Assembly (NCBI RefSeq): GCF_004346865.1
Contig: NZ_SMGR01000001.1
Coordinates: 806,001-870,000 of the forward strand
DNA: 64,000 nt
Direction of reading: 5' to 3'
Origin: Shimia isoporae
GTDB lineage: Bacteria; Pseudomonadota; Alphaproteobacteria; Rhodobacterales; Rhodobacteraceae
Below are positions 9,862 through 30,321 of this stretch, piece after piece. The notes below the pieces were generated by a model. The model saw only the letters and a program-made list of their open reading frames with translations. It did not search any database and had not been told where the DNA came from. The translations under genes and the position numbers were made by a program. Position 1 is the first letter of the stretch. Every line of letters starts with the position of its first letter.

Positions 9862-10731
9862 TTATAACCCGTAAAACGACCGTGCCGTGTCGCCAAAAAC
9901 CTGCGGATGAACCGCCTCGGGAACAAGGGTGCGGTGGGCGTTCACGAGGGTTGCGTAGTCCGAATACAGGCTGTCCACCGGAAAGTTTGAGCCAAACATA
10001 CAGCGCTCCGGATCGAATTGCTCCAGGCAAGTTTCCACGATTGGACGAAAGTCTTCCGTTGTCCAGTTATGCTCAAACATGCCAAGTCCTGACAGTTTGC
10101 ACGTGATGTTTTCCAGTTCCGACAAGAGCTTCAGCCTTTCGGCCCAATCCGCAAGACCTGACGGGCTTCGGTCGTGCGGACTTCCGGCATGGCAAAGGGC
10201 GACCTTTGTTTGAGGCGCACGGGACAAAACCCTCGCGGTCTTCTCCATCAGTTCCGGGATGAGTTGCAAATCAAACGACAGCCCGCGATCACCGGCGATT
10301 TGCAGCCCGCGTAAAAACCTTGGATCGTCCAGCAGGTCGTTGGTCCCTGTTACAGCATCCTCGCCCGGTGCGCGCCCTACGATCTGGCGCACGCCTCGCA
10401 CGGTGGTCAAAGACTGAAATAAATCCAGGTTTTGCTCCAGATCCGTGCGTGTCAAATCGCAAAAAACAACCTGAGCCAAGGGCCAATCGGGAGCGTCATC
10501 CGCCAAGGCCTGCACCCATTTTGCTTCTTGCCAGCCATCTTCCGCGCCCACCTGAATGTGAACTGATCCGGCAAATCCAAGTTCTTCGGCGCCTTGGCGG
10601 AACTCGTCCATCAGATAGTCGCGTTGGATCGGAGCGGGGTCGCCAAAAAATCTCGGTTCGCCCTGCGCCATCAGCCAGGGGTAATGAACCGCTGACAAAT
10701 CCCAGAGATGGTGATGCGCATCAATCAGCAT
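9862..10731 (-). CDS. Amidohydrolase family protein (COG3618, lactonase-like TIM barrel)
   Basis: 289 residues. The N-terminal metal motif DAHHHLWD (residues 4-11) and the C-terminal MFGSNFPVDS, with its barrel-end Asp, are diagnostic of the Amidohydro_2/COG3618 group, which includes L-fuconolactonase and related sugar-lactone or dicarboxylate-lactone hydrolases. A central metal or substrate His lies in KVALCHAGSPHD. The gene starts 7 bases inside the end of the tandem SnoaL gene and is co-transcribed with it away from the LacI-type operators. A lactone-hydrolysing step after sugar or cyclitol oxidation would fit the neighbouring dehydrogenases, but the substrate is not evident from sequence. 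Confidence 0.8.
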   Translation of the reverse strand: MLIDAHHHLWDLSAVHYPWLMAQGEPRFFGDPAPIQRDYLMDEFRQGAEELGFAGSVHIQVGAEDGWQEAKWVQALADDAPDWPLAQVVFCDLTRTDLEQNLDLFQSLTTVRGVRQIVGRAPGEDAVTGTNDLLDDPRFLRGLQIAGDRGLSFDLQLIPELMEKTARVLSRAPQTKVALCHAGSPHDRSPSGLADWAERLKLLSELENITCKLSGLGMFEHNWTTEDFRPIVETCLEQFDPERCMFGSNFPVDSLYSDYATLVNAHRTLVPEAVHPQVFGDTARSFYGL

Positions 10732-11762
10732 GTGGCCTCTCCGGCGGCGATATCGGTGGTGCGCGCAAGAATGTCCACTCCCTGCATCTTCCAGAAGTGC
10801 AGAAGATCAATGAAGATCCAATTCTCCGACAGCTTGTCTCCATCCCGACGGTAAATGTCGATCACACGAAACTCGCCGGCTTTGCCTGTTGCGGGCATAC
10901 CCATGAAACCGCCTGTTGGAACCGCTGTGAAATTCGGCCACCCGAAGAAGCCGCCATAGTGGCCTTCTGCCATACGGCACACATGTTTCGTTTTCGAGCG
11001 TTCTCCGAATGCCGCGCGGAATGGGCCGGAATGTTGTTTGGCGTAGCGCTCGATCGTGTAGGTCGCGCCGATACCGGTCGGACCCCACCAGATCATGTCG
11101 TCATGCCACGTTCGCGCCAGTTCCTCCTCCAGAGGCATCCCGCTGTTCCATTGTCCAAGATCGGTGATCATCGCTTCGATCGCAGCAAGCGTTTTGGCAC
11201 CTGCGTCTAAGGGCTGCGCCTCAAACAACAACCCGTCATGGGTGCGCGGCCCCGGTTGCACCAATTCCGCTGCCGTCTGTGTCGGAAACGGGCGCAGACC
11301 TGCCTGCATCATCAGATGTGGTACGTCAAAATACATCGCGGTTTCGACGATCTTGCCATCTCTTACTTTGTGGAAGGCGGCATAGCGCAGAAACACAATC
11401 TTCCCTGTTGGCAGAATGCCGAGCCATGGCGCATCAAACAGTCCCATCAGGTGTCCCATTGAACAGACCCACGGATCGCCATCGGGATCATGGCGGTTCT
11501 TTGCACCGAAAAAGATGTCCATGCGCCGCTGCAGACGTGTGAGGCTGCGACGCAAGGGCTGCCAGAACTTCTCTGCAACGGCTTGTGGGCCAACGATCTC
11601 ATCAAATGGTGAAAAGCCGCGCCACAAAAGGTTATCAGCGCAGAATTCTGCCATCACATCCGGTAGCGTCTGGGTCCTGCGGGTTTCCAAAGCATCATAG
11701 AATCGGCGCACCACGTCTTTGGCGTCCTGTACGTCGTTTTCCGTGTTGTCGCTGATATTCAT
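10725..11762 (-). CDS. Tandem SnoaL/NTF2-like protein 1
   Basis: 345 residues made of two NTF2/SnoaL-type cone domains (about 15-165 and 185-335). Each half carries the family turn: GILPTGKIVFLRYAAFHKVR in the first, GMPATGKAGEFRVIDIYRRD in the second. The end reads WIFIDLLHFWKMQGVDIL, a motif shared with three other proteins of the island. SnoaL-fold enzymes include aldol cyclases, delta-isomerases, dehydratases and epoxide hydrolases acting in a hydrophobic pocket. It is the first gene of the divergent minus-strand unit, starting about 50 bases from the first LacI-type operator. The exact reaction is unknown. Confidence 0.8.
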   Translation of the reverse strand: MNISDNTENDVQDAKDVVRRFYDALETRRTQTLPDVMAEFCADNLLWRGFSPFDEIVGPQAVAEKFWQPLRRSLTRLQRRMDIFFGAKNRHDPDGDPWVCSMGHLMGLFDAPWLGILPTGKIVFLRYAAFHKVRDGKIVETAMYFDVPHLMMQAGLRPFPTQTAAELVQPGPRTHDGLLFEAQPLDAGAKTLAAIEAMITDLGQWNSGMPLEEELARTWHDDMIWWGPTGIGATYTIERYAKQHSGPFRAAFGERSKTKHVCRMAEGHYGGFFGWPNFTAVPTGGFMGMPATGKAGEFRVIDIYRRDGDKLSENWIFIDLLHFWKMQGVDILARTTDIAAGEATC

Positions 11763-11808
11763 GGCTTTTCCGTTGTTTTATCTGCATGGATTCGGCTCTC
11801 TGACCGAG

Positions 11809-11828
11809 TTTTGCGTACGTATGCAAAA
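11809..11828 (+). promoter_or_regulatory. LacI-type operator 1 in the divergent promoter region
   Basis: TTTTGCGTACGTATGCAAAA is a 20-bp inverted repeat with one mismatched pair and the central CG typical of LacI-family sites. A near-identical second copy lies 56 bases downstream. The likely ligand is the LacI-family regulator at 22700-23743. Confidence 0.75.
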
Positions 11829-11864: not shown

Positions 11865-11884
11865 TTTTGCAAACGTATGCAAAA
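11865..11884 (+). promoter_or_regulatory. LacI-type operator 2 in the divergent promoter region
   Basis: TTTTGCAAACGTATGCAAAA has one mismatched pair and the same outer arms as operator 1. The two sites lie in the 174-bp interval between divergent transcription units, so one regulator could govern both directions and might loop between them. Confidence 0.75.
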
Positions 11885-11936: not shown

Positions 11937-12989
11937 ATGGCAGAAATTCAGCTTCGCAATGTTGGCAAGCGATGGGGCAACTTTGTCGGGGTCGACAATT
12001 TCGACCTGACCATCGCGGACAAGGAGTTTCTGGTCCTGCTTGGCCCATCAGGCTGCGGTAAGACCACCACCATGCGGATGATCGCCGGACTGGAGGACGC
12101 CACTGAAGGCGACATCCTGATCGACGGCAAAAAGGTCAATGATCTGGAGCCTAAAGACCGCGACGTGGCCATGGTGTTCCAGTCCTACGCGCTCTACCCG
12201 AACATGAACGTCTACGAAAACATCCGCTTTCCGCTCAAGGTGCGTGGGATTGATCCGGCGACCCATGACGAGAAAGTCCGCCGCGCGTCGGCGATGGTGG
12301 AGCTTGACGATTTCCTGCACCGCAAGCCTGCGGAATTGTCAGGTGGTCAGCGCCAACGTGTTGCTCTGGCCCGTGCGATCGTGCGAGAGCCGAACGTGTT
12401 TTTGATGGACGAGCCGCTTTCCAACCTTGACGCAAAGCTGCGGGTTTCCACACGCGCCCAGATCAAGAACCTCAGCCATGAACTGGCTGTGACCACAATC
12501 TACGTGACCCACGACCAGATCGAGGCGATGACGCTGGCTGACCGCGTTGTGGTGATGAAACAGGGCGTGGTGCAACAGGTCGGCAGCCCGACCGACATCT
12601 ATGACCGGCCGGCCAACACTTTTGTTGCGAGCTTCATCGGTAACCCCGCGATGAACTTAATGAACGGCACTATGGAAGGTGGCACCTTCCGCGCCGAACA
12701 CGTTGAAATCGCGGGATTGTCTGCACCTGATGGCCCCGTGACCCTCGGGTTCCGCGCCGAAGACGCGGGTTTGGGGGACGCTGGTCACCATGAAATCACC
12801 GCTCCGATCTACACGCTCGAACTGTTGGGCGAGGCCACAATGGTAACCGTCCGCATCGGTGGCGAATTGGTCGCCGTGCGTGCACCCAAGGATTTCCGGT
12901 CAGAGATTGGCGACACGGTATCACTCTCCGTGCCAGCCGAAATCTGCCACCTGTTCGACGCCCAGACCGGCGCTCGGATCGAGGCCTGA
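11937..12989 (+). CDS. Sugar-type ABC transporter ATP-binding protein (UgpC/MalK family)
   Basis: 350 residues starting at MAEIQLRNVG, with CAGGGGGACC just upstream; an upstream in-frame ATG at 11811 lies inside operator 1 and is unlikely. Walker A GPSGCGKTT, signature LSGGQRQR, Walker B VFLMDEPLSNLD and His in YVTHDQIEAM are all intact, and the C-terminal 110 residues form the TOBE-type regulatory domain. It is the first gene of the long plus-strand catabolic operon and is followed by its binding protein and two permeases. One ATPase gene suggests a homodimer, unlike the glycerol-type system upstream. The substrate is unknown; the class imports sugars, polyols and related compounds. Confidence 0.9.
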   Translation: MAEIQLRNVGKRWGNFVGVDNFDLTIADKEFLVLLGPSGCGKTTTMRMIAGLEDATEGDILIDGKKVNDLEPKDRDVAMVFQSYALYPNMNVYENIRFPLKVRGIDPATHDEKVRRASAMVELDDFLHRKPAELSGGQRQRVALARAIVREPNVFLMDEPLSNLDAKLRVSTRAQIKNLSHELAVTTIYVTHDQIEAMTLADRVVVMKQGVVQQVGSPTDIYDRPANTFVASFIGNPAMNLMNGTMEGGTFRAEHVEIAGLSAPDGPVTLGFRAEDAGLGDAGHHEITAPIYTLELLGEATMVTVRIGGELVAVRAPKDFRSEIGDTVSLSVPAEICHLFDAQTGARIEA

Positions 12990-13087: not shown

Positions 13088-14332
13088 ATGTTTCTGAAGA
13101 AAGTAGCCATCGCAGGGGCCGTATCGGGCCTCATGGGCACGGCAGCCTTTGCCGCCGATTGTGGCCCTTCCGGCAATTCCGTCCGCATTCTCGGCTCCGA
13201 CTTCCCGGCCATTCAGGCCGTGTCGGGTGCTGCCGAGGCAAACTGCGCGAGCGGTGCAAGTGAATTCACCATCAACCTTCGCGACAATACACGCGATATG
13301 ATGAATCAGGCTCTGACGCCGAACCCGGCTGAATATACGTCCGTTATCGTTGCCAACTCCACTCTGACCCAGTTGATGAACGACGATCTGGTGCGTCCGC
13401 TTGACGATCTCGTTGTCAAGTATGGCGCGAATATCAAACCGTCCCAGCTGATCAAGATCGACGGCAAGGTGATGGCGGTGGCCTTCATGGCCAACTCTCA
13501 GCACCTGTATACCCGCACTGATATTCTGGAGCAGGCAGGTGTGGACGGCATCCCGACCAGCGTCGAGGAAATGGTTGCCGCAGCAGAGAAAATTCGCGCG
13601 GCAGGCATCATGGAATACCCGATTGTGATGAACATGAAAGTCGGCTGGAACGTCGGCGAACTGTTCAACCTGTTCTACTTCGCCAACGGCGGTGAACTGT
13701 TCAAGCCCGGCACAGCCGAGCCGAACGTGAACTCTCCAGAGGGCATGGCAGCACTTGAGTCTGTGAAAGCGCTGCTGGAATACACGCATCCGGACCATCT
13801 GAGCCACGCATCCAACGAGACGCAAGGTCTGTGGGAAGCTGGCAAAGCTGCAATGGCCATCATGTGGGGGTCCCGCGGTGGCGCGGTTCTGGATGACGAA
13901 GGCTCGACCGCCGAAGTCACTTCCAACACCGTTCTGTCCGCCGCACCGACAGCAGGTGGGGGCTCTACCCCAGCCGCTACACTGTGGTGGGACGGTTTCA
14001 CCATTGCCAAGAACGTGCCTGATGCCGACGCAGAGGCGACCTTTGCGGCGCTGGCAAGCGCGATCAACTCTGACCTGATGGCGGAGCACAACGACAAGGC
14101 CATCTGGCTGATCGACGGCTTCAAGCCTGGCCCTGCAGCAGCAGGTGTTGCGGCAACAGCCGCGGGCGGCGCGAAACCTTACCCGATGATCCCCTACGTC
14201 AACCTGATGCATAACGCGTTGGGCGCGGAACTGGTGGATTACTACAAGGGCGACGAGAGCGCAGAAGATGCGCTGGCAGACGTAGAAGCGGCCTATCGCA
14301 CCGCCGCCAAGGAAGCAGGCTTCCTGCAATAA
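13088..14332 (+). CDS. Extracellular solute-binding protein, family 1
   Basis: 414 residues starting at MFLKKVAIAGAVSG, with GGGAGAAG before it; a start at 13034 would bury the signal peptide. Residues 1-21, ending AAFA, are a signal peptide. The mature protein has the two-lobed family-1 fold, with landmarks such as GKVMAVAFMANSQHLYTRTD and NGGELFKPGTAEPNVNSPEG. It delivers an unidentified carbohydrate-like solute to the permeases at 14402-16328. Two hairpins flank the gene, consistent with higher expression than its neighbours. Being in one transcript with oxidoreductases and SnoaL proteins, it is likely to bind the starting compound of that pathway. Confidence 0.9.
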   Translation: MFLKKVAIAGAVSGLMGTAAFAADCGPSGNSVRILGSDFPAIQAVSGAAEANCASGASEFTINLRDNTRDMMNQALTPNPAEYTSVIVANSTLTQLMNDDLVRPLDDLVVKYGANIKPSQLIKIDGKVMAVAFMANSQHLYTRTDILEQAGVDGIPTSVEEMVAAAEKIRAAGIMEYPIVMNMKVGWNVGELFNLFYFANGGELFKPGTAEPNVNSPEGMAALESVKALLEYTHPDHLSHASNETQGLWEAGKAAMAIMWGSRGGAVLDDEGSTAEVTSNTVLSAAPTAGGGSTPAATLWWDGFTIAKNVPDADAEATFAALASAINSDLMAEHNDKAIWLIDGFKPGPAAAGVAATAAGGAKPYPMIPYVNLMHNALGAELVDYYKGDESAEDALADVEAAYRTAAKEAGFLQ

Positions 14333-14401: not shown

Positions 14402-15433
14402 ATGAAGCATCGCACCTTCTTTTGGTTCATCCTGCCGACACTCTCGGCGATGATACTCTTCATCGCCTTGCCCATTGTCTCGGTCTTCATTCAGTCACTG
14501 TTTGTGGAGCACGAACAGGTTCTGATCGTGACCGAAAGCTGCGGCCCCTTCGGGTGTACGCCAACCACGACGATTGACGCCGAAGCCACTGCACAGCTTC
14601 GAGAAGAAAAGCCACTCGGTCGGTTCAACGGACTCGGCACCTATTTTGACCGGTCTCACCTCGCGATTGCCGAAATCGGCGAAATCTGGAGGTCTACCAG
14701 CGGCATTGGACATTTCCTTGCGGAAATCATGGATCTGAAGTTCTACGCCGCCCTGGTCTTTACTTTGACCTACACTTTCGTCGTCACACCTTTGGTTCTG
14801 GTGTTTGGCATGGCCATTGCAGTTGGCGTAAACAATCTGCCCAGAGCCGTCCGTGGCCTTGCGATTTTCATTTCGCTCTTGCCATTTCTTGTCCCGACCA
14901 TCGTCGGGTCGATGATCCTGTCATGGATGGTTGACGGTGACGGGGTGATTGGCGCGACGCTGCAGAGCATCTTTAATGATCCGTCCCTCAGCATCAAAGC
15001 CTCGACCCCGCTCATGTGGATCATGCTGATGGTCTACGGTGTCTGGCATACTTTGCCGTTCTCGTTCATCACCTTCTACGCAGGCTTACAAACCGTCCCT
15101 CAAGACACGCTGGAAGCTGCCCGCGTAGACGGGGCCAGCAAATGGCAAACCATGATCAGCGTCGTGGTTCCCCACCTGATGCCGCTGGTGTCCTTCGTGA
15201 CCTTGATGCTCCTTATGGACAACTTCCGCGTCCTTGAACCGCTCGTCAGCTTTCAGGCCGAGGCGCACGCCCAGTCCCTCAGCACCTTCATTGTCAGCGA
15301 TCTGATCGAAGCCGGTAACCCGCTCTACGCCTCTGCAGGGGCCACCTCGATCCTGACGATCATCGGTGTCGCGATCCTTCTCACTCCGGTGCTGATCCGC
15401 ACCTGGCGCGATTTTAACGCCAAAGCCCACTAA
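14402..15433 (+). CDS. ABC transporter permease, MalF type
   Basis: 343 residues, about six hydrophobic helices. After the first helix (residues 9-30) there is a roughly 80-residue periplasmic insertion containing two cysteines in TESCGPFGCTP, reminiscent of the larger MalF P2 loop and perhaps disulfide-linked. The EAA loop reads EAARVDGASKWQTMISVVVP (about residues 239-258), which is canonical. The final helix ends near residue 335. It pairs with the permease at 15447. Ribosome site spacing is loose (GGGA about 9 bases upstream). Confidence 0.9.
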   Translation: MKHRTFFWFILPTLSAMILFIALPIVSVFIQSLFVEHEQVLIVTESCGPFGCTPTTTIDAEATAQLREEKPLGRFNGLGTYFDRSHLAIAEIGEIWRSTSGIGHFLAEIMDLKFYAALVFTLTYTFVVTPLVLVFGMAIAVGVNNLPRAVRGLAIFISLLPFLVPTIVGSMILSWMVDGDGVIGATLQSIFNDPSLSIKASTPLMWIMLMVYGVWHTLPFSFITFYAGLQTVPQDTLEAARVDGASKWQTMISVVVPHLMPLVSFVTLMLLMDNFRVLEPLVSFQAEAHAQSLSTFIVSDLIEAGNPLYASAGATSILTIIGVAILLTPVLIRTWRDFNAKAH

Positions 15434-15446: not shown

Positions 15447-16328
15447 ATGGCAACCAAGGCAGAATCCCGTCTCTCAACGCTCAAGGTCGTTTCCTACGCG
15501 CTGGTGATCGTTTGGCTCATTATCGCGGCGTTCCCGTTCCTTTGGACGGTCTGGGGCAGCTTCAAAGTTCAGGGCGATTTCTTTTCCAAGGCGGACTGGA
15601 CCAATGCGATTTATGGCGTCTTCACGACCCGTGAAACCGGAAGCGCCTTTACGCTTGACGGGTATCGCGGCGCTTGGATTCAGGAAGAGTTCTGGCGCAA
15701 CGTGCTCAACACCTCGGTGATTGTGTTCTTCACCGTTATTATCTCGCTGACCTTCGGCACGCTGGGTGGCTACGCGCTGGCCCGCTCCGGCTTCAAATAC
15801 GCCTTCTGGATCCTGATGGCCGCACTGATCTTCCGCGCCATGCCACACATCACGCTGGTCTCCGGTTACATGCTGCCATTCTTTGAATGGAACATCTGGG
15901 GCCTCAAAGGCACAGCCATCATCGTGCTCGTGGCGATCAACCAACCCTTCACCCTGTGGATGTTGCATAGCTTTTTCAAGAACATCCCCAAAGACATGGA
16001 CGAGAGCGCCATGGTTGACGGATGCACCCGCTTTCAGGCCTTCTGGCACGTGATTGTACCTGTTATGTGGCCTGGCGTGATCACGACCGGTCTCTTCAGC
16101 TTCCTGCTGGCATATAACGACTACATCGTGACCAACATGCTGCTCAGCAAGCCCAACGAAACCATGGTGCCTGCCGTTGCCAGTTTCCTTGGGTCGGTAC
16201 AGGTGCAGGGCAACATCATGTTTGCTGTCGCCGCCGCAGTGTCGGCCACGGTACCGCTCTTCATCATGATCCTGTTCTTCCAGCGTCAGATCGTCTCGGG
16301 CCTGACAGCAGGGGCCGTGAAAGGGTGA
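15447..16328 (+). CDS. ABC transporter permease, MalG type
   Basis: 293 residues with TAAGGAGACGACAGTC before the ATG, a strong ribosome site. About six helices; the helix-1 sequence LIIAAFPFLWTVWGSFKVQGDFF is typical of MalG-like permeases. The EAA loop is diverged: DESAMVDGCTRFQAFWHVIV (about residues 185-204). The stop overlaps the GTG start of the next SnoaL gene by 4 bases (GTGA), tying transport to catabolism by translational coupling. Confidence 0.9.
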   Translation: MATKAESRLSTLKVVSYALVIVWLIIAAFPFLWTVWGSFKVQGDFFSKADWTNAIYGVFTTRETGSAFTLDGYRGAWIQEEFWRNVLNTSVIVFFTVIISLTFGTLGGYALARSGFKYAFWILMAALIFRAMPHITLVSGYMLPFFEWNIWGLKGTAIIVLVAINQPFTLWMLHSFFKNIPKDMDESAMVDGCTRFQAFWHVIVPVMWPGVITTGLFSFLLAYNDYIVTNMLLSKPNETMVPAVASFLGSVQVQGNIMFAVAAAVSATVPLFIMILFFQRQIVSGLTAGAVKG

Positions 16329-17347
16329 ACTCAGCACACGACCATAACCGGTCTGCCATGACCCCTCTGCGCGCAGCCTTTCAAAGAGGCGACAGGGCGG
16401 AAATGCGCGCAGCTTTGCTGGCACTCTTTGCTCCCGACGCAAAAATCCGCATGGGTCACCCGTTTCAGGATGTAGCGGGTCCGCAGGATTTATGGGAGCG
16501 TGTCTATACACCTCTGATTGACGCGATCCCCGATCTTGAAAGACGGGATTTCATCGTGATGGCCGGTCCCAGATGGGGGCAAGACAAATCAGGTAATTGG
16601 GTTGGTCTCGGAGGTAACTTCGTTGGGACCCTCTCCGCCTCTTGGCTTGGCATACCTGCCACCGGACGCCCCGTATTCATGCGTTATCACGAATATCTGC
16701 GCATCGAAGACGGTAAGGTAGTCGAGATGGAAGCGCTGTGGGACATCCCGCAGGTCATGTATCAGGCCGGAATCTGGCCCATGGCACCGCAAAAGGGCGA
16801 AGAGTGGATGTGCCCCGGACCGATGGATGGCGCAGGCGTGATGACTGCGCCCCGAAACGCCACTCAATCGAACGCCTCAGTGCAACGTGTCTGGGACATG
16901 TTGCACGATCTGAAACAAGGAACTGCGGAAACGCCAGAGCGTGGCTTGGGCGGTTATTGGCATGACCACGCCAACTGGTACGGCCATACCGGTCTCGGCA
17001 CAGCGCGCGGCCATCACGGCATTGCTACCCGCATCTTCAAGCAGTTCCGCGAAGGGCTTTCAGACAACACACGGCACCTTCATGACGGTGTTTTCTTTGG
17101 TGATGGCGCACTCGTGGCATTCACCGGCTGGCCGTCCGGTACGGCCGTGCATTCCGGTGACGGCTTTCTGGGTCTTGCCCCTACCGGTAAACGCATCACC
17201 CGCCGTTCACTCGATTTCTGGCGGCTTGAAAGCGGTTTGGTGCGAGAATGCTGGGTGATGGTCGACATGCTCGATCTTTACCGCCAACTCGGCGTCGACG
17301 TTTTGGGTTGCCTTCAAGGTCCCTCGACCGTGGAGGCCGCCGCCTGA
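16325..17347 (+). CDS. Tandem SnoaL/NTF2-like protein 2
   Basis: 340 residues from a GTG start (GTGA overlap with the permease stop); an ATG at 16358 is an alternative. Two SnoaL-type domains: the first contains WLGIPATGRPVFMRYHEYLR followed by DGKVVEMEALWDIPQVMYQAG, the second GLAPTGKRITRRSLDFWRLE and MVDMLDLYRQLGVDVL. The same landmarks in the same order occur in the proteins at 10725 and 20884, so these are paralogues. Conserved Trp/His residues in GYWHDHANWYGHTGLG line the presumed pocket. The likely role is an isomerase, cyclase or hydratase in the pathway; the precise chemistry is unknown. Confidence 0.8.
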   Translation: MNSAHDHNRSAMTPLRAAFQRGDRAEMRAALLALFAPDAKIRMGHPFQDVAGPQDLWERVYTPLIDAIPDLERRDFIVMAGPRWGQDKSGNWVGLGGNFVGTLSASWLGIPATGRPVFMRYHEYLRIEDGKVVEMEALWDIPQVMYQAGIWPMAPQKGEEWMCPGPMDGAGVMTAPRNATQSNASVQRVWDMLHDLKQGTAETPERGLGGYWHDHANWYGHTGLGTARGHHGIATRIFKQFREGLSDNTRHLHDGVFFGDGALVAFTGWPSGTAVHSGDGFLGLAPTGKRITRRSLDFWRLESGLVRECWVMVDMLDLYRQLGVDVLGCLQGPSTVEAAA

Positions 17348-23743: not shown

Positions 23744-24732
23744 TGCAAGGTTTTGACTCCAAATTCACCGATTTTCCGGACTACATCATCGGCATTACCA
23801 AAGAGATCTGGGAAGATCGTGGCATCGCGACTCTTCACCACTACTACAGCGACGACATCGTCGTACGATCTCCTGCGTCCGTGGTGATTGGCAACCAGAA
23901 CGTTATCGGTGCAACAATGGCAACGCTCGCCGAGTTTCCTGACCGGGAATTGCTGGGCGAAGACGTGATCTGGTCCGGAACACCCGAAGACGGCATGCTC
24001 TCGAGCCACCGTATCATTTCCACCGCAACGCACATGGCAGACGGAGTTTACGGAAAGGCGACCGGCAAGCAGTTGCGGTATCGTATCCTTGCGGACTGTC
24101 ACGCGATCAACAACCAGATCAACGACGAGTGGCTGATCCGTGATCAGGGCGCCATTGTGCGTCAGATGGGCTGGGAGCCCAAGGCCTACGCCGCCAACCT
24201 GATCGAAGCAGAAGGCGGCCCCGAAAACTGCATCAAACCCCTGACGCCCGACACCGATCAACCGGGGCCCTACAAGGGCAGGGGAAATGACAACGAGTGG
24301 GGACAGCGTTACGCGGACATCATCAGCCGCATCATGGGCGCAGACATTGCCGCGATCGAAACCGAATATGACCGTGCGGTGCAATCCGAATATGTCGGTG
24401 GCGTGACCGGACACGGCTGGGGTGCGGTTGACCGCTTCTGGATGAGCCTGCGCGCGGCCTTCCCGAATGCCGAATTCAAGATTGAACATCAAATTGGACG
24501 TGACGATCCGATGATGCCTCCTCGCGCAGCCCTTCGTTGGAGCCTTTGGGGCAAACACGAAGGCTGGGGCGCATTTGGCGCTCCAACGGGAGCGGAGGTC
24601 TATGTGCTTGGCATCAGCCATGCAGACTTCGGTGCGGTCATTTCCGGCCAACCGAAAGTGCGCCGCGAGTACACACTCTTTGACGAAACGACGATCTGGA
24701 AACAGATCCTCCTTCAGACGGGCCAGGGGTGA
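23743..24732 (+). CDS. Divergent tandem SnoaL/NTF2-like protein 5
   Basis: 329 residues; the ATG shares one base with the LacI stop. Two NTF2-like halves are suggested: the first (10-140) with HHYYSDDIVVRSPASVVIGN and DEWLIRDQGAIVRQMGWEP, the second (175-320) with ADIAAIETEYDRAVQSEYVG and PNAEFKIEHQIGR. It lacks the LGVD ending and the PTGK turns of the other four are less clear (YGKATGKQLRYRI, GAPTGAEVYVLG). It is therefore the most distant member and could act on a different intermediate. Assignment to the fold is by eye and less certain than for the others. Confidence 0.65.
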   Translation: MQGFDSKFTDFPDYIIGITKEIWEDRGIATLHHYYSDDIVVRSPASVVIGNQNVIGATMATLAEFPDRELLGEDVIWSGTPEDGMLSSHRIISTATHMADGVYGKATGKQLRYRILADCHAINNQINDEWLIRDQGAIVRQMGWEPKAYAANLIEAEGGPENCIKPLTPDTDQPGPYKGRGNDNEWGQRYADIISRIMGADIAAIETEYDRAVQSEYVGGVTGHGWGAVDRFWMSLRAAFPNAEFKIEHQIGRDDPMMPPRAALRWSLWGKHEGWGAFGAPTGAEVYVLGISHADFGAVISGQPKVRREYTLFDETTIWKQILLQTGQG

Positions 24733-24892: not shown

Positions 24893-25858
24893 ATGACACC
24901 TCAGGAAATGGAATCCCGCATCGTTCGCTACGGCGAACTGCAACCCTGCAAAACCGCTTTCATTGATGCCCACACTCCGGGCAGCGATCAGAAGGAAAAC
25001 TTCACCATCATCGGTGGCGGCGTGTCCGAAAGCCCCGATCAGCATGTGCACATCACCATCCCGCACGGCTTCAATATTGGCGCGGCCGGCCAACCCCCGA
25101 AATGCCGCAACTCGTTGCACGATCACCGAACGGCCGAAGCGTTTTTTGTGCTGTCTGGCCGGTGGCGGTTCTTTTGGGGCCGCTACGGCGACGCAGGCGA
25201 AGTGGTTCTTGAAAAAGGCGACATCTTCAATATCCCCACCGGCATCTTCCGCGGTTTCGAAAACATCGGCACAGATTACGGGATGATCATGGCCATTCTC
25301 GGGGGCGACGACGCCGGCGGCGGCGTCATGTGGGCACCGCAGGTGATTGAGGATGCCGCGGATCACGGTCTCGTTCTCGCCGAAAGCGGCAAGCTCTATG
25401 ACACCAAGAAGGGAGAGGCACTGCCTTCGGGCGTGAGCCCGATGCCTTTGATGGCGGCCGATGAATTGGCAAAGCGGGGCGAACCGACCACTGCGCAGGT
25501 TCTGCCAAATCATGTTGCGCGCTACTGGGACATGGTTGCCTTGTCAGACAAGACGCCAGCGAAGGTGATCGGCGAAACCGGTATTCTGCGCGACAAGCCG
25601 GGTTTTGAAGTGAACTTCATAACCCGCGGTTCGGCATCGGATACCACAACGTCATTCGACTATCCTTCCGTTCTCATGCCGGTCACCGGCCACTGGAAGG
25701 TGACATGGGACGGCGGTAGCGCAACCCTTGCACCGGGCGACACCATGTCAGTCCCGGAAGGCATGGCGCACACCGTTCTGCCATCCATGACAGGAGAGGC
25801 TGCGATCTATCAGATTGTTGGCACCGCTGATCCTGCCGGACTGACCTGGCAGGGTTAA
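24893..25858 (+). CDS. Bicupin protein (gentisate-dioxygenase-like double cupin)
   Basis: 321 residues starting at MTPQEMESRIVRYG; AAAGGACG lies about 10 bases upstream, and a 160-base gap with a GC-rich inverted repeat separates it from the previous gene. Two cupin barrels: residues 60-150 with LHDHRTAEAFFVLSGRWRFF and GDIFNIPTGIFRGFENIG, and 235-310 with PSVLMPVTGHWKVTWDGG and PGDTMSVPEGMAHTVLPS. The first barrel keeps a His-x-His pair and Glu that could bind a metal, though the last ligand position is Arg/Phe rather than His. The order resembles gentisate 1,2-dioxygenase-type bicupins, but isomerase or lyase bicupins exist. Role: probably an Fe- or Mn-dependent step of the pathway. Confidence 0.72.
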   Translation: MTPQEMESRIVRYGELQPCKTAFIDAHTPGSDQKENFTIIGGGVSESPDQHVHITIPHGFNIGAAGQPPKCRNSLHDHRTAEAFFVLSGRWRFFWGRYGDAGEVVLEKGDIFNIPTGIFRGFENIGTDYGMIMAILGGDDAGGGVMWAPQVIEDAADHGLVLAESGKLYDTKKGEALPSGVSPMPLMAADELAKRGEPTTAQVLPNHVARYWDMVALSDKTPAKVIGETGILRDKPGFEVNFITRGSASDTTTSFDYPSVLMPVTGHWKVTWDGGSATLAPGDTMSVPEGMAHTVLPSMTGEAAIYQIVGTADPAGLTWQG

Positions 25859-26012: not shown

Positions 26013-27146
26013 ATGGCTAAGATCTTAACATCCCACGTGGGCAGCTTGCCACGCACACAAAAAGTGGTGGATTTCATCTTCGCACGGGAAAACGAAAAGC
26101 CTTACGATCAAGCGGCGTTTGATGCGGCCATGACCGAGGCTGTGGACGAAACAGTGCGCAAGCAGGTCGAGGCGGGGGTGGACATCGTAAGCGACGGGGA
26201 AACAAGCAAAATTTCCTACGCGACTTACGTCAAGGACCGGTACACGGGGTTTTCCGGCGACAGTGAACGCAACGCCCCGGCCGATCTGAAAATGTTCCCG
26301 AGTTTCCTGCAACGGTTGGCCGATGACGGCGGCACGCCCCAATATGCACGTCCAAAATGCACCGGCGAAGTCCGCTCCAAAGGGCAGGACGAACTGATGA
26401 AAGACATCAACAATCTCAAATCGGCTATGGCCAAGCACGGCGTTGAACGCGGCTTCATGAACGCAGCGTCTCCCGGGGTTATCTCTCTGTTTTTGCAAAA
26501 CGATTTCTACGGAAGCCGCGAAGCATATCTGGCCGCACTTGCTGATGCGATGAAGGCTGAGTACGAGACGATTGTGGCAAACGGGCTCGATTTGCAGTTG
26601 GATTGCCCCGACCTCGCGCTGTCTCGTCATATGTTGTTTACCGATCTCAGCGACGATGAATTCGTCAAGGTCGCCGACATGCACGTCGAGGCCCTGAACC
26701 ACGCGCTGTCAGACGTGCCGCAAGACCGTGTGCGTGTTCACATCTGCTGGGGCAATTACGAAGGGCCACACTGTTGTGACATCGCTATGGACAAGGTCTT
26801 TTCGACTCTGATGGCCACCAAGTCACGTTATGTCCTTTTTGAAACTTCGAACCCGCGCCATGCCCATGAATGGACCACATTTCGTGACCGGAAAGCGGAA
26901 ATTCCTGACGACAAAGTGCTGGTGCCGGGCGTTGTCGACACGACAACAAACTTTGTCGAGCATCCGGAGCTTGTGGCGCAACGTATTGAAAGGTTTGAGG
27001 GAATAGTTGGAGCGGACCGTGTGATTGCCGGTAGCGATTGCGGGTTTGGCACCTTTGCTGGATTTGGTGCCGTGGATCCGGATATTGCCTACGCCAAGTT
27101 GGCCGCTTTGTCCGAGGGCGCGGCACTGGCAGGCAAGAACTCGTGA
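26013..27146 (+). CDS. MetE C-terminal-domain-like zinc methyl/alkyltransferase family protein
   Basis: 377 residues starting at MAKILTSHVGSLPRT, with GGGAGA 9 bases upstream. The whole protein corresponds to the C-terminal catalytic barrel of cobalamin-independent methionine synthase. Zinc ligands are visible as His243 and Cys245 in VHICWGNYEGPH and Cys343 in GSDCGFGTF, with Glu277 in LFETSN. The N-terminal half of MetE is missing, as in the UROD/MetE-like family that includes methionine-core enzymes and the epoxyalkane:coenzyme M transferase (similar length). The family activates a thiol on zinc for alkyl transfer. In this operon a thiol-dependent or methyl-removing catabolic step is more likely than methionine synthesis; that is inference. 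Confidence 0.8.
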   Translation: MAKILTSHVGSLPRTQKVVDFIFARENEKPYDQAAFDAAMTEAVDETVRKQVEAGVDIVSDGETSKISYATYVKDRYTGFSGDSERNAPADLKMFPSFLQRLADDGGTPQYARPKCTGEVRSKGQDELMKDINNLKSAMAKHGVERGFMNAASPGVISLFLQNDFYGSREAYLAALADAMKAEYETIVANGLDLQLDCPDLALSRHMLFTDLSDDEFVKVADMHVEALNHALSDVPQDRVRVHICWGNYEGPHCCDIAMDKVFSTLMATKSRYVLFETSNPRHAHEWTTFRDRKAEIPDDKVLVPGVVDTTTNFVEHPELVAQRIERFEGIVGADRVIAGSDCGFGTFAGFGAVDPDIAYAKLAALSEGAALAGKNS

Positions 27147-27841
27147 CGCTGCCCCTCGTTCTATTGCCGGGTATGATGTGTGACGCACGTCTGTTTGCCC
27201 CGCAATTCGCGGCGTTTTCAGGCGCGCGCACGGTGATAGCCGCACCGATCAGCGCCTTCCAGACCATGCGGGAACTTGCTGCAGACGTGCTGAATTCACT
27301 TCCGGCACGCTTCGCACTCGCTGGTTTGTCGATGGGCGGTATTGTCGCCATGGAAATGGTGCGACAGTCACCGGAGCGCGTGGCTGGTTTGGCGCTTTTG
27401 GATACGAACCCGCTAGCGGAATCGGACGCGGTAAAAGCGCGGCGGGGGCCGCAGATCGAAGCGGTAAAGTCCGGAAATCTGAGGCAAGTCATGCGCGAGG
27501 AAATGAAACCCAATTACCTCACAGACGGCCCAAATCAGGGGGCGATCTTGGACATCTGCATGGCGATGGCCGCGGACCTTGGCGATGAGGTTTTCATAAA
27601 CCAATCCAAAGCTTTAATGACGCGACCTGATCAATCTGAAACGTTGAAATCGTTCGCGAAGCCTGCGCTTTCTCTTTGCGGGGAAGACGACACACTCTGT
27701 CCGGTTTCCCGACATGAATTGATGCGGGATCTGCTGCCGGACTCGGATTTGGAGATCGTTCGAAACGCTGGCCATCTCCCCACACTGGAACAACCCGAAG
27801 CAACAAACGCCGCGCTGTCGCGATGGCTGGAGAGACTATGA
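27143..27841 (+). CDS. Alpha/beta-hydrolase
   Basis: 232 residues from a GTG that overlaps the previous stop (GTGA). The early motif LVLLPGMMCDARLFAPQ forms the oxyanion region, the nucleophile is Ser63 in AGLSMGGIVAM, the acid is probably in CGEDDTLCPV and the base is His in NAGHLPTLEQPE near the C-terminus. Cytoplasmic, small serine hydrolase, probably cleaving an ester, lactone or C-C bond of a pathway intermediate. It overlaps the RraA-like gene by ATGA, giving tight coupling of hydrolase and lyase. Substrate not deducible from sequence. Confidence 0.85.
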   Translation: MTLPLVLLPGMMCDARLFAPQFAAFSGARTVIAAPISAFQTMRELAADVLNSLPARFALAGLSMGGIVAMEMVRQSPERVAGLALLDTNPLAESDAVKARRGPQIEAVKSGNLRQVMREEMKPNYLTDGPNQGAILDICMAMAADLGDEVFINQSKALMTRPDQSETLKSFAKPALSLCGEDDTLCPVSRHELMRDLLPDSDLEIVRNAGHLPTLEQPEATNAALSRWLERL

Positions 27842-28533
27842 CCCCATCACTTCTGAAACTGCTCCGTTCCGTGGATACACCCACGGTTTGCAATGCCATT
27901 GAGGTCGCTCAGGGCAAACGCGGGTTTGCGCAATTCACTCGAGGCACCATGCTCTGCTCGGCTCCCGACGAACCGCCCATGGTGGGATACGCGCGCACGG
28001 CCAAAATCGCGGCGCTCAACCCGCCGACCGAGGCCGCAGATATCCTCAAAACACGTCGCATGGCATACTATCGACATATGTCCGAAGGCGCGGAACCCAC
28101 TGTCGCCGTTGTCGAAGACGTCGACTTCCCGGACTGCATTGGCGCTTTTTGGGGCGAGATCAATACAACTGTTCACAAGGGTTTGGGGTTGTCCGGCGCG
28201 CTTACAAATGGCGTCATGCGCGACCTTGGCGATCTGCCCGAGGGCTTCCCCGTGGTTGCGGGATCGATTGGTCCCAGCCACGGTTTCGTGCATGTGCGGG
28301 AAATCGGGACCCCGGTGACCATTTTCGGGATGCAGGTGAAGAACGGCGATCTTGTTCACGCAGACCGACACGGGGCCCTCGTCGTTCCGCCCGACGTTCT
28401 GGACTCCCTCGAAGCGTCCATTCTGAAGTTGCTGGAAACCGAAAAGCTCGTTTTGGAACCGGCACGCCAGGATGGGTTCGATTTCGAGGCTTTCGAAAAG
28501 GCATGGGCGGCGTTTGAGGCGGCGCGCACCTGA
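27838..28533 (+). CDS. RraA-family lyase (4-hydroxy-4-methyl-2-oxoglutarate aldolase/oxaloacetate decarboxylase-like)
   Basis: 231 residues, ATGA overlap with the hydrolase. The family motif NGVMRDLGDLPEGFPVVAGS (about residues 122-141) carries the Arg-Asp pair that binds pyruvate enolate and metal. FGMQVKNGDLVHADRHGALV follows, with the usual metal-site Asp. RraA-like catabolic enzymes are class II pyruvate aldolases or decarboxylases without the RNase E inhibitor role. In the operon it would split an oxidised intermediate to give pyruvate or a related keto acid. The family also includes dimethylmalate-related enzymes. Confidence 0.85.
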   Translation: MTPSLLKLLRSVDTPTVCNAIEVAQGKRGFAQFTRGTMLCSAPDEPPMVGYARTAKIAALNPPTEAADILKTRRMAYYRHMSEGAEPTVAVVEDVDFPDCIGAFWGEINTTVHKGLGLSGALTNGVMRDLGDLPEGFPVVAGSIGPSHGFVHVREIGTPVTIFGMQVKNGDLVHADRHGALVVPPDVLDSLEASILKLLETEKLVLEPARQDGFDFEAFEKAWAAFEAART

Positions 28534-28617
28534 TTGCGCCGCCATTTTGCGGTTGCGACGGGATTTGTGGACTGCTCAGATGCACGCTGAGTCGTGCGCC
28601 CAATCGGAGAAAATTCC

Positions 28618-30321
28618 ATGCCCGCAAGCCGTTCTGAAAACAGTGAAAATTCGCGTCATGGCGGCAGAATTCTCGCGGACCAACTTGCCATACTGGGCAT
28701 CGAAAAGGTGTTCTGCGTTCCTGGCGAAAGCTATCTCGGTCTGCTTGATGGGCTTTATGATCACGCCGACAAGATCGACGTTGTAACCTGCCGGCATGAG
28801 GGCGGCGCAGCCAATATGGCGGATGCCTATGGCAAGCTGACCGGAAAACCTGCGGTCTGCGCTGTCACCCGTGGGCCGGGCGCGACAAACGCCTCCAATG
28901 GCGTGCACACTGCCTTTCAGGACAGCACGCCGATGATCGTCCTGATCGGGCAGGTGGCCACATCCATGATGGACCGTGAAGCCTTTCAAGAGATCGATTA
29001 TCGCCGCATGTTTGGCGAGATGGCCAAGTGGGTCGCGCAGATCGACGACATCTCAAGAATTCCTGAATATATTTCAAGAGCTTGGCATGTGGCTTTGTCG
29101 GGCCGTCCGGGTCCGGTTGTATTGGCCTTGCCAGAAGACACTCTGTCTGCCGTGGCCACTGTCCCGGATGCCCGTCCGGCGCATGTTGGGTATGCTGCAC
29201 CGGCTGCCGAAGACATGGCGCAGCTGGAAAAATTGATCGCGCAAGCCATGAAGCCCATGCTTGTTGTTGGCGGGCCGGGCTGGAGCGCAAGGTCTGCCGA
29301 GTTAACTGCGCAGGTTGCGGAAAAATTCGACCTTCCTGTAGCCACAACCTTCCGCTGTCAGGACTACGTCGACAACGGGCACCCCAATTATGCGGGCGTC
29401 ATCGGAATCGCAGCCTTGCCATCTCTGTTGCAAAGCGTGGGTGAAGAGGCCGACCTCTTGATTACGGTGGGAACACGGTTCGGAGAAATGACCACGCAGG
29501 GCTATGAACTGATCGATAGTCCTGTGCCACAAATGAAGTTTGTGCACGTTCATCCGGGACCGGAACAGCTCGGCCACGTTTATGCGCCTGACGTTTCGAT
29601 CGTTTCTTCGGCTGAGAACTTTCTGAGCGCAATGCTCGAGCTGTCTTCGCCGGATGTTGACCGGAGCGATTGGACTGGCGGTTTCCATGCCCGTTATCAG
29701 GCCTTCCGAACGCCAACCGAAGTGCCGGGTGATCTCAACATGGGGCACGTGATACGGCACACCTCAGACACACTGCCGGCCGACACTGTTTTCACGAACG
29801 GCGCAGGCAACTACGCCGTCTGGTTGCATCGTTTCCATGCCCACCGCACGTATCGCACCCAACTTGCGCCAACGAGTGGCTCCATGGGCTATGGGGTGCC
29901 GGCTGCTGTGGCGGCCAAGCTGGAAAAACCCGAAAGTACGGTGGTAAGCGTGGCAGGGGATGGTTGCTTCTTGATGACTGCACAAGAAATGGCAACGGCA
30001 AAAAAATACGATCTGCCAATCATTTACCTTGTCGTTAACAACGGTATGTACGGTACGATCCGCATGCATCAGGAACGTCACCACCCCGGGCGCGTGATTT
30101 CTACCGAACTGGTGAACCCTGATTTTGTTACCTATGCCAAGTCGTTTGGAATCCCCGGAGAAGTCGTGACGCGTACCGAGGACTTTCCGGCTGTGCTTGA
30201 ACGGGCACGCACATCGTCATCCGGCTACCTGATCGAATTGCAGGTTGACCCAGAAGCCCTGACGCCAGTGCAGTCATTAAGCGAGGTGCGCGCGCAGGGA
30301 GTGGCCGCGCAAAAGGGCTAG
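28618..30321 (+). CDS. Thiamine-diphosphate-dependent enzyme (acetolactate synthase/decarboxylase family)
   Basis: 567 residues from MPASRSENSENSR, GGAG 9 bases upstream. Three-domain ThDP fold: N-terminal Pyr domain with the activating Glu62 in CRHEGGAANMADAY, a middle domain (residues 190-330), and a C-terminal PP domain with the ThDP-Mg motif GDGCFLMTAQEMATAKKYDL ending in NNGMYG. The closest general class is the large subunit of acetolactate synthase and its catabolic relatives (glyoxylate carboligase, sulfoacetaldehyde acetyltransferase, oxalyl-CoA decarboxylase). No small regulatory subunit follows, favouring a catabolic keto-acid decarboxylase or carboligase. It is the last gene of the long plus-strand run and may process the product of the RraA-like lyase. 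Confidence 0.88.
   Translation: MPASRSENSENSRHGGRILADQLAILGIEKVFCVPGESYLGLLDGLYDHADKIDVVTCRHEGGAANMADAYGKLTGKPAVCAVTRGPGATNASNGVHTAFQDSTPMIVLIGQVATSMMDREAFQEIDYRRMFGEMAKWVAQIDDISRIPEYISRAWHVALSGRPGPVVLALPEDTLSAVATVPDARPAHVGYAAPAAEDMAQLEKLIAQAMKPMLVVGGPGWSARSAELTAQVAEKFDLPVATTFRCQDYVDNGHPNYAGVIGIAALPSLLQSVGEEADLLITVGTRFGEMTTQGYELIDSPVPQMKFVHVHPGPEQLGHVYAPDVSIVSSAENFLSAMLELSSPDVDRSDWTGGFHARYQAFRTPTEVPGDLNMGHVIRHTSDTLPADTVFTNGAGNYAVWLHRFHAHRTYRTQLAPTSGSMGYGVPAAVAAKLEKPESTVVSVAGDGCFLMTAQEMATAKKYDLPIIYLVVNNGMYGTIRMHQERHHPGRVISTELVNPDFVTYAKSFGIPGEVVTRTEDFPAVLERARTSSSGYLIELQVDPEALTPVQSLSEVRAQGVAAQKG

Follow-up and report, generated by a model that had tools for sequence, protein, structure and literature searches.

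Mycosporine-like amino acids (MAAs) are UV sunscreens of algae, cyanobacteria, and corals. Bacterial removal of serine and threonine from two of them, shinorine and porphyra-334, is attributed to Dunlap and Shick in a review (PMC3083659), and the products of that release (mycosporine-glycine, 4-deoxygadusol, and the free hydroxyamino acid) are the same as those predicted for the locus described here; unlike our reading of the locus, the portion of the review devoted to this release names no genes or enzymes. Set against the release as described in that portion, the genomes compared here include no V. harveyi but do include several Vibrio and one Photobacterium with a SnoaL gene near a serine deaminase gene. 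At the protein level, the polyketide cyclases SnoaL, AclR, and IdmH and the tandem epoxide hydrolases Lsd19 and MonB have the NTF2 fold in common with the SnoaL proteins of the locus, which differs in being free of polyketide genes and in its proposed reaction, C–N hydrolysis. LigK/GalC, of the RraA fold, is the CHA aldolase of the protocatechuate and gallate routes, and 4-carboxy-4-hydroxy-2-oxoadipate is a substrate of RraA-type aldolases/LigK; the aldolase of the locus belongs to the same family and has the same RD motif but is distant in sequence (27 bits against the LigK/CHA aldolase model TIGR02798, cut-off 304.5). The sulfopropanediol 3-dehydrogenase HpsN (PDB 8v35, 8wwe) shares its fold family with the HisD-like protein of the locus but sits in a different operon.

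Within the 64,000-nucleotide stretch analyzed here (the window), positions 9862 to 30321 form a catabolic island of ~20 kb in which genes for five SnoaL proteins, nine domains in all, lie together with those of an ABC importer and of a LacI regulator. Counts below refer to 114 neighborhoods, namely the window, 20 regions (each 20 kb at most), 13 records of plasmids, and 80 loci out of the 464 recovered when a genome collection was searched with one SnoaL protein (Sd) as the marker; the set is partly redundant (L082 and L110 are the same DNA or genome, with contigs of equal length and matching coordinates, L180 resembles L181, and some of the 20 regions come from the same genome). ORFs were picked and clustered by a home-made procedure, such that absences in these counts are soft; gene identities were checked on examples with curated NCBI models. 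The features are as follows:

9862..10731, minus strand: Amidohydro_2 hydrolase, lactonase-like (Amh; PF04909, 130 bits; 20/114 neighborhoods)
10725..11762, minus strand: tandem SnoaL a (Sa), 2 domains (PF07366, 2 stretches)
11812..11825, plus strand: predicted LacI-type operator 1, TGCGTACGTATGCA (palindrome)
11868..11881, plus strand: predicted LacI-type operator 2, TGCAAACGTATGCA (56 bases from operator 1)
11937..12989, plus strand: ABC ATPase, UgpC type (NF008653, 451 bits, cut-off 432)
13088..14332, plus strand: ABC solute-binding protein (SBP_bac_1; PF01547, 81 bits)
14402..15433, plus strand: ABC permease 1 (PF00528)
15447..16328, plus strand: ABC permease 2 (PF00528)
16325..17347, plus strand: tandem SnoaL b (Sb), 2 domains (PF07366; 44% to Sd, its closest relative within the window)
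17347..18828, plus strand: GMC oxidoreductase, accessory (PF00732/PF05199; 5/114 neighborhoods, including the window)
18956..19483, plus strand: single-domain SnoaL c (Sc; PF07366; refined start)
19498..20826, plus strand: HisD-like dehydrogenase, HpsN-like, predicted to convert alcohol to acid (PDB matches; 63/114 neighborhoods)
20884..21936, plus strand: tandem SnoaL d (Sd), 2 domains, search marker (PF07366, 99 bits)
21936..22700, plus strand: SDR dehydrogenase (PF13561; 57/114 neighborhoods)
22700..23743, plus strand: LacI-family regulator (PF00356/PF13377; 77/114 neighborhoods)
23743..24732, plus strand: divergent tandem SnoaL e (Se), 2 domains (PF07366, 50 bits, 2 stretches; 74/114 neighborhoods)
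24893..25858, plus strand: bicupin, candidate ring-opening dioxygenase (PF07883; 60/114 neighborhoods)
26013..27146, plus strand: MetE-C-like zinc protein, candidate O-demethylase (PF01717; 42/114 neighborhoods)
27143..27841, plus strand: alpha/beta hydrolase (Abh; PF12697; 53/114 neighborhoods)
27838..28533, plus strand: RraA-family aldolase, replaced by an HpcH/HpaI aldolase elsewhere (PF03737, 61.9 bits, cut-off 24.5)
28618..30321, plus strand: ThDP enzyme, PRK08199 family, probably accessory (NF006052, 829 bits, cut-off 539)

Every gene named in an earlier note on this DNA is present, its count of five SnoaL proteins with nine domains agrees with the Pfam SnoaL/SnoaL_2 stretches (2+2+1+2+2), and its view of a single catabolic island with its own importer and oxidation enzymes is supported; the island also has a regulator of its own. 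The claim that almost all of these genes are start-stop coupled was overstated: with refined gene starts, 7 of the 16 plus-strand junctions overlap by 1 to 4 bases, but the other 9 are gapped by 13 to 160 bases (the minus-strand Amh/SnoaL-a pair overlaps by 7). The whole 4.23-Mb genome contains 15 SnoaL_2 matches, 8 of which (two of them below the family cut-off) fall within one 14-kb stretch of the island; the clustering is thus not due to chance. A choline sulfatase gene (30864) was rejected as a member of the island, as it lies 542 bases off on the opposite strand and did not recur among the neighborhoods compared.

The island is widespread, its core conserved in 113 neighborhoods plus the window; the cultivated roseobacter Ruegeria sp. 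THAF33 is among the strains that have the operon. Judged by sequence, this core consists of the SnoaLs, the HisD-like enzyme, the cupin, the MetE-like protein, the alpha/beta hydrolase, and an aldolase. Given their rarity elsewhere, the GMC oxidoreductase and the ThDP enzyme were rejected as core parts: relatives of the latter occur in just two other fetched neighborhoods (L145, 48%, 757 bits to NF006052; L018, 44%, partial). The island had been called unrecognized, and it is without a name in the records examined; among the literature matches listed, there was no paper on MAA degradation genes or on this gene set, nor any joining SnoaL/ester cyclase with histidinol dehydrogenase, ABC transporter, or Ruegeria, or mycosporine with SnoaL. 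The gene set is conserved yet apparently undescribed.

All five SnoaL proteins score above the PF07366 cut-off (28.4 bits) and, as such, belong to the SnoaL/NTF2-like superfamily, with scores far below the cut-off of 200 for the SnoaL/DnrD polyketide methyl ester cyclase model NF033407 (Sc, 43 bits; Sd, 28; Sb, 18). The AlphaFold model of Sd (pLDDT 84) displays two NTF2 domains (folds were listed by VIA-align, where a family missing from the listing is not thereby ruled out as an NTF2 relative); its whole-chain rmsd of ~16 Å to Lsd19/MonB suggests a different, or uncertain, domain arrangement. We take H119 and D137 of the N-terminal domain to correspond to the His/Asp pair of SnoaL. Sa, Sb, and Sd share 31 to 44% identity with each other but 74 to 81% with their best matches elsewhere, and Se has no blastp match to the other island SnoaLs at E 1e-10; the duplications are therefore old, and the recent local duplication proposed earlier is not borne out. 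Nor do we retain isomerization or cyclization as the SnoaL function: because of the genes that lie beside SnoaL genes in other bacteria, we infer instead that the SnoaLs free serine, threonine, and glycine from MAAs. Sa, whose relatives lie near serine deaminase or KBL/TDH genes in other bacteria, is a candidate hydrolase for the serine/threonine substituent.

Mainly in gammaproteobacteria, but also in Ensifer, these same SnoaL genes lie beside genes for serine deaminase, threonine dehydrogenase/KBL, or glycine cleavage. Across 46 genomes (41 isolates and 5 uncultured, G719 to G723, all from the 80 loci), a SnoaL gene is no more than 10 kb away from 10 of the 63 SdaA (serine deaminase) genes (expected 0.46, with statistics that ignore shared ancestry), from 3 of 48 GcvP genes (expected 0.36), and, more weakly, from 2 of 42 TDH genes (expected 0.31; full-length matches, 18 weak ones of <222 bits having been dropped). 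The control genes ProDH (0/48, two Pro_dh pieces of G680 having been merged, from 49) and HutH (0/45) were never this close, and widening the radius to 15 kb brought in one ProDH (G717). The hypothesis was drawn from the same neighborhoods as this test: G719, G720, G721, and G723 were chosen after the amino acid genes had been noticed there, and serine deaminase had previously been noticed at four isolates (L103, L124, L125, and L133). With G719 to G723 left out, the counts are 8/58 for SdaA (four previously noticed, four new), 1/43 for GcvP, 0/39 for TDH, and 0/84 for the controls. Fifteen further genomes, in which distances were read from tables by eye (controls were run in the 46-genome set only), partly bear out the linkage to serine and threonine genes: SdaA is near a SnoaL gene in 7/37 cases and TDH in 3/18, with 10 genomes positive and 5 having neither, although 6 of the 10 belong to family f53, for which the SdaA pairing was already known (G942 was dropped, its coordinates being equal to those of G699). 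In family f88, an extra TDH lies near a SnoaL gene in 3/3 genomes, and KBL-TDH takes the serine deaminase slot in both fetched loci.

Several loci unite these genes with the island itself. In the alphaproteobacterium Ensifer adhaerens (L013), TDH and KBL lie inside a full island (RraA, Abh, cupin, Se, SDR, HisD, Sc, ABC, and Sd). Among gammaproteobacterial loci, L144 holds GcvT, SdaA, two SnoaLs, TonB, cupin, Se, Amh, SSS, HpcH, Abh, LacI, and HisD; L125 and L133 hold SdaA plus most of the core; and L143 holds TDH, KBL, Se, SdaA, and Sd. In the home-made clusters, no Ser/Thr/Gly genes lie beside the operon of the window or at the other inspected alphaproteobacterial loci except L013. A KBL-like neighbor in Roseibium (L175) proved to be 5-aminolevulinate synthase instead.

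We propose, with a probability of roughly 0.6, that the island, which is common in marine roseobacters, imports and breaks down MAAs such as shinorine and porphyra-334. That it would encode MAA catabolism in its entirety, by way of substituent-matched SnoaL-fold hydrolases, HisD-like oxidation, cupin ring opening, a C7 acid, and a pyruvate aldolase, has in our estimation a shade over an even chance. The presumed substrate, the order of the steps, and the chemistry of each would be as follows: (i) the MAA would be taken in by the CUT1-type ABC importer; (ii) SnoaLs of differing specificity would hydrolyze the C=N/C–N bonds to serine/threonine (C1) and glycine (C3), yielding 4-deoxygadusol, and the released amino acids would be catabolized through serine deaminase, TDH/KBL, or glycine cleavage; (iii) the HisD/HpsN-like enzyme would oxidize the ring CH2OH to COOH; (iv) the cupin would cut the C1–C2 bond of the methoxy-enolone ring, and the methoxy carbon would be removed as a methyl ester by the alpha/beta hydrolase, by the MetE-like zinc protein, or by both; and (v) an RraA- or HpcH-type aldolase would split the C7 product (4-carboxy-4-hydroxy-2-oxoadipate or a close relative) into pyruvate and oxaloacetate. 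On paper, oxidation and ring opening of 4-deoxygadusol do give 4-carboxy-4-hydroxy-2-oxoadipate. The ester route leaves the MetE-like protein without a clear job, and the proposed route has no SDR, GMC, or Amh step.

The neighboring genes indicate the amino acids and not the ring, and the SnoaLs could instead release serine, threonine, and glycine from some conjugate other than an MAA (e.g., N-acyl or imine-linked). We consider this unlikely: no single substrate would then account for the HisD, cupin, MetE, hydrolase, and pyruvate aldolase set, most of which has a role with 4-deoxygadusol, and the bacterial serine/threonine release found in the literature, in the portion of the review cited above (PMC3083659), is from MAAs.

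The importer, being of the sugar-type CUT1 class, counts against the MAA reading. Its operon diverges from the SnoaL-a gene, and the operator pair is located in the promoter region between that gene and the ABC ATPase gene. A palindrome of this kind is present in 13 of 16 Sa-ATPase intergenic regions, and exact paired sites spaced by 54 to 55 bases occur at L009, L078/L100, L099, L165, L171, and L174; both operons, that of the transporter and that of SnoaL-a and the amidohydrolase, have the conserved pair, as predicted from sequence, in common. The importer itself is exchangeable: many gammaproteobacteria have SSS, MFS, or TonB-receptor genes in place of the ABC genes. A cyclitol, sugar acid, or modified sugar oxidized to a keto-deoxy acid for RraA/HpcH, with the SnoaLs as dehydratases or isomerases, would account for the CUT1/SSS importers, the LacI regulator, and the sugar-acid aldolases among the PDB relatives of HpcH, and the lactonase-like Amh (102.6 bits against the L-fucono-1,5-lactonase model NF052480, cut-off 400), GMC, SDR, and HisD-like enzymes would feed such a route. 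It does not, however, predict Ser/Thr/Gly genes near SnoaL genes, it requires many SnoaL paralogues for one sugar, and no kinase or sugar-acid dehydratase family was among the recurrent clusters identified; we regard it as somewhat less probable again than a non-MAA conjugate.

For the oxidation step of the MAA route, the best PDB matches of the HisD-like protein are sulfopropanediol/DHPS dehydrogenases (380 bits, versus 239 for the best histidinol dehydrogenase). By likeness to the zinc and catalytic residues of HpsN and its CH2OH-to-COOH chemistry, we take Q251, H254, D353, and H413 to be zinc ligands and E319 and H320 to be the catalytic Glu-His. Across 60 sequences, these residues are each at least 97% conserved, and they align with those of 8v35. 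A pathway for the sulfonate DHPS or a related compound, with the HisD-like protein acting as its closest PDB relative, HpsN, was rejected as the main reading and is very improbable, as neither a sulfolyase nor a sulfoacetaldehyde acetyltransferase was recognized in the island of the window, its ThDP enzyme matches PRK08199, and a small C3 substrate would not require nine SnoaL domains.

In bicupin quercetin dioxygenases, the metal is bound by three His and one Glu. The structure model of the island cupin is closest to these enzymes (TM 0.54, 13% identity), and its sequence has one PDB match (E 0.48); in 27 sequences, H76, H78, and E82 are invariant with R120 at the expected fourth-ligand position, a departure from the quercetin dioxygenase site. 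The MetE-like protein, with only weak PDB matches, conserves H251, C253, E285, and C351 (numbered on the 25989 ORF), and the alpha/beta hydrolase conserves S98, D218, and H246 (27038 ORF). The RraA-like protein keeps R133 and D134 of the RD motif in at least 97% of 27 sequences. We presume the residues conserved in HisD, HpcH, RraA, and MetE to be catalytic or metal binding. At the 54 loci with both HisD and cupin, the aldolase is RraA in 27 and HpcH in 24, with both in 0 and neither in 3; a final C–C cleavage, as the earlier note had it, is probably encoded by the island.

If true, the MAA reading would provide a genetic handle on MAA recycling, a marker with which to follow sunscreen turnover (in the sea, in lakes and corals, and in salterns), and a reaction new to the SnoaL fold. 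The island is common: 117 of the 295 genomes from the family to which the window belongs carry the Sd marker. Records of alpha-, beta-, and gammaproteobacteria contain versions of it, as does one haloarchaeon, Halobellus limi, from a solar saltern, where the island version is carried on a plasmid; saltern cyanobacteria are rich in MAAs.

A catabolic island carrying SnoaL proteins is present at 9862–30321, as the earlier note had proposed, with nine SnoaL domains by Pfam; eight of the 15 SnoaL_2 matches in the genome lie inside 14 kb of the island. We put at roughly 60% the probability that it serves the breakdown of mycosporine-like amino acids (MAAs). Its features are as follows:

Within 9862–30321, minus strand: an Amidohydro_2 hydrolase gene (Amh) and a tandem SnoaL gene (SnoaL-a)
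Within 9862–30321, plus strand: 17 genes, from the ABC ATPase gene to the ThDP enzyme gene
11812 and 11868, between SnoaL-a and the ATPase gene: two TGCAWWCGWWTGCA-like palindromes

The plus-strand genes are ordered ABC ATPase, binding protein, two permeases, SnoaL-b, GMC, single-domain SnoaL-c, HisD-like, SnoaL-d, SDR, LacI, SnoaL-e, bicupin, MetE-C-like, alpha/beta hydrolase (Abh), RraA-like and ThDP. Start-stop coupling, previously claimed for almost all genes, was overstated, with overlap at 7 of the 16 plus-strand junctions, and the suggestion of recent local duplication of the SnoaL genes also went too far.

The case for the palindromes as operators rests on conservation across loci, since loose matches in the window alone (4, versus 3.8 expected) are at chance level. 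A palindrome with at most one mismatched pair occurs in 13 of 16 SnoaL-a/ATPase intergenic regions, and 34 of the 190 loci, which include overlapping ones, carry exact copies. Among the exact copies that were placed, those of roseobacters and Vibrio hannami lie ahead of the ATPase gene, and those of Roseibium and of two betaproteobacterial MAG loci lie ahead of HisD. The spacing of the pairs (54 to 56 bases) would fit a looping LacI-type repressor.

Relatives of SnoaL-d, our search marker, occur in 117 of 295 genomes of the window's family (E ≤ 1e-30, own genome counted), and among 398 genomes sampled from the phylum, 21 match a SnoaL-d-type alignment at E ≤ 1e-40. At this threshold, the alignment leaves unmatched two other tandem SnoaL_2 proteins encoded elsewhere in the window's own genome (contig C1, 435645–436328; contig C3, 32732–33376). 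From the 464 relatives returned by a scan of genome contigs, we retained the best 80, which derive from Vibrio, Photobacterium, Colwellia, Pseudoalteromonas, Marinomonas, Alteromonas, Glaciecola, Microbulbifer, Psychrobacter, Roseibium, Ruegeria, Rhodoferax, and others. Matches also exist in 24 plasmid records, including those of Ruegeria, Paracoccus, Marinovum, Octadecabacter, Ensifer, Vibrio pelagius, and the archaeon Halobellus limi. By record annotation, the plasmid of the latter, a solar-saltern isolate, encodes (L011, 2313–21001) four tandem-length and one shorter "ester cyclase," plus MetE-like, ABC importer, aldehyde dehydrogenase, aldolase/citrate lyase family, and aminomethyltransferase family proteins.

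Across 114 neighbourhoods (window included, some duplicated), the recurrent partners are LacI (77), SnoaL-e (74), HisD (63), cupin (60), SDR (57), ATPase (56), alpha/beta hydrolase (53), binding protein (51), MetE (42), RraA (27), Amh (20), and GMC (5). Partners beyond the window's set are an SSS symporter (29), an HpcH/HpaI aldolase (28), an extra SnoaL-type protein (16), a TonB receptor (13), and serine deaminase (10). Some of these partners replace one another: the 54 loci with both HisD and cupin contain RraA (27), HpcH (24), or neither (3), never both, an exchange that mostly tracks taxonomy. Similarly, the 63 loci with HisD contain an ABC binding protein without SSS (37), SSS without a binding protein (16), or neither (10), again never both; the two transporters co-occur in 2 of the 114 neighbourhoods (L102 and L103). 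Because both the RraA type and the HpcH type have known members that act as pyruvate aldolases, the final step of the pathway is probably a pyruvate aldolase step.

In other bacteria, genes of serine, threonine, and glycine catabolism lie near SnoaL genes of this type more often than expected. In 46 genomes, some SnoaL gene lay at most 10 kb from 10/63 serine deaminase genes (SdaA; expected, 0.46), 3/48 GcvP genes (0.36), and 2/42 threonine dehydrogenase genes (TDH; 0.31), versus 0/48 genes for the control proline dehydrogenase (0.34) and 0/45 for the control histidine/phenylalanine ammonia-lyase (0.30). Pooled, this amounts to 15/153 versus 0/93 (Fisher, 0.0006), and to 17/153 versus 1/93 at 15 kb. 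Removing five uncultured genomes, four of which had joined the sample after such genes were noticed there, leaves 9/140 versus 0/84 (Fisher, 0.013) and, for serine deaminase, 8/58, four of the eight having been seen beforehand. Both Fisher tests count genomes as independent, though they are not.

One gammaproteobacterial order has SnoaL matches in 21 of 394 genomes, 15 of them new to the analysis (control genes were counted in the 46-genome set only). Serine deaminase lies within 4 kb of SnoaL in seven of the 15 (7/37 genes; six in family f53, one in f69), threonine dehydrogenase within 6 kb in three (3/18 genes; all f88, each with a second copy elsewhere), and neither in five. Two fetched f88 loci comprise LacI, SnoaL-a, MFS, SSS, LysR, KBL (counted with TDH under threonine catabolism), and TDH; L188 (f53) and L185 (f69) comprise LacI, (porin), SnoaL-a, MFS, SSS, and SdaA; and L190 (f53) comprises LacI, SnoaL-a, MFS, and SSS, without SdaA. 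Therefore, one compact module comes with genes for breaking down serine, with genes for breaking down threonine, or with neither. The new information comes from f69 and f88, because the f53 adjacency represents a clade already seen (L085 to L087).

Individual loci join such genes to the core. In the alphaproteobacterium Ensifer adhaerens (L013), TDH and KBL, both above NCBI equivalog cut-offs, sit between SnoaL-a and LacI, followed by RraA, Abh, cupin, SnoaL-e, SDR, HisD, SnoaL-c, ABC genes, and SnoaL-d; apart from L013, no recognised Ser/Thr/Gly genes adjoin the operon in the window or other inspected alphaproteobacterial loci. L144 combines GcvT, SdaA, two SnoaL, TonB, cupin, SnoaL-e, Amh, SSS, HpcH, Abh, LacI, and HisD; L125 and L133 combine SdaA with SnoaL-e, three other SnoaL, SSS, cupin, Amh, HpcH, MetE, Abh, and LacI. 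L143 contains TDH, KBL, SnoaL-e, SdaA, and SnoaL-d; SdaA, GcvT, and GcvP adjoin SnoaL-d in L124; and L172 has GcvP and GcvT. Spot checks of gene identity covered SdaA in L087 and L144; KBL in L013, L140, L143, and L183; TDH in L013 and L183; GcvP in L124 and L172; and GcvT in L124. A KBL-cluster member in Roseibium (L175) is a 5-aminolevulinate synthase and was left out of the KBL evidence.

The MAAs shinorine, porphyra-334, and mycosporine-glycine bear serine, threonine, and glycine. In the proposed scheme, the CH2OH of 4-deoxygadusol (3,5-dihydroxy-5-hydroxymethyl-2-methoxycyclohex-2-enone) would be oxidised to COOH, perhaps by the HisD-like enzyme, and the C1–C2 bond of the product would be cut with O2, with the cupin as candidate. 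Removal of the methoxy group could fall to the alpha/beta hydrolase or the MetE-like protein, the latter being superfluous if the group leaves by ester hydrolysis. The resulting chain, HOOC-CO-CH2-C(OH)(COOH)-CH2-COOH, would be 4-carboxy-4-hydroxy-2-oxoadipate, the substrate of RraA-type CHA aldolases, and the aldolase is the candidate for this last step. Each proposed step, then, has a candidate gene in the operon.

The HisD-like protein scores higher against HpsN (380 bits) than against histidinol dehydrogenase (239 bits) and retains the zinc-binding and catalytic residues. Also retained are H, C, E, and C in the MetE-like protein (which we take to be a zinc site), E42, H43, R68, E147, and D173 in the HpcH protein, R133 and D134 in the RraA protein, and HxHxxxE in the cupin, with Arg replacing the last ligand. 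The cupin model (pLDDT 90) is closest to bicupin quercetin dioxygenases (E, 5e-15; TM, 0.54; 13% identity). The SnoaL-d model (pLDDT 84) forms two NTF2 domains, the first with H119 and D137 invariant in 32 sequences; the closest solved single-domain folds are AclR, KstA15, a Jannaschia SnoaL protein, SnoaL2, and IdmH. The tandem epoxide hydrolases Lsd19/MonB align over both domains, but with an rmsd near 16 Å.

Against MAA breakdown stand the absence of recognised Ser/Thr/Gly genes beside the operon in the window and in the inspected alphaproteobacterial loci other than L013, the distance of the window's RraA protein from LigK (27 bits versus a cut-off of 304.5), the possible redundancy of MetE, and the presence of SDR, Amh, and GMC, which fall outside its scheme. 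Breakdown of other serine, threonine, or glycine conjugates is possible. In a literature mostly without subscription papers, the matches listed included neither MAA degradation genes nor a description of the island's gene set.

Adjoining the island, and convergent with it, are a BlaI/MecI-type repressor (Penicillinase_R) and an M56/BlaR1-type membrane peptidase (8298–9859). Directly after it comes a choline sulfatase on the minus strand (30864–32402; TIGR03417, 694 bits, cut-off 433). Farther along the window lie an HlyD-type protein, ABC transporter, and RTX-repeat protein resembling a type I secretion set and its likely cargo (32693–38584) and, by look, an alpha-glucoside-type set of MalK-like ATPase, alpha-amylase family enzyme, two permeases, binding protein, LacI regulator, and GH1 glycosidase (38747–47878). 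Elsewhere, a zinc alcohol dehydrogenase lies near SnoaL-d, with almost no other core genes, in L115, L118, L122, L126, L132, L137, L141, and L145; the one tested (L132) is a class III S-(hydroxymethyl)glutathione dehydrogenase (TIGR02818, above cut-off), and a protein related to the window's ThDP enzyme is encoded in L145 as well. The selenium-binding protein SBP56 occurs near SnoaL clusters in Marinovum (L021, 21554–28196, with DMSP genes) and Phaeobacter piscinae (L018, 13735–15132).
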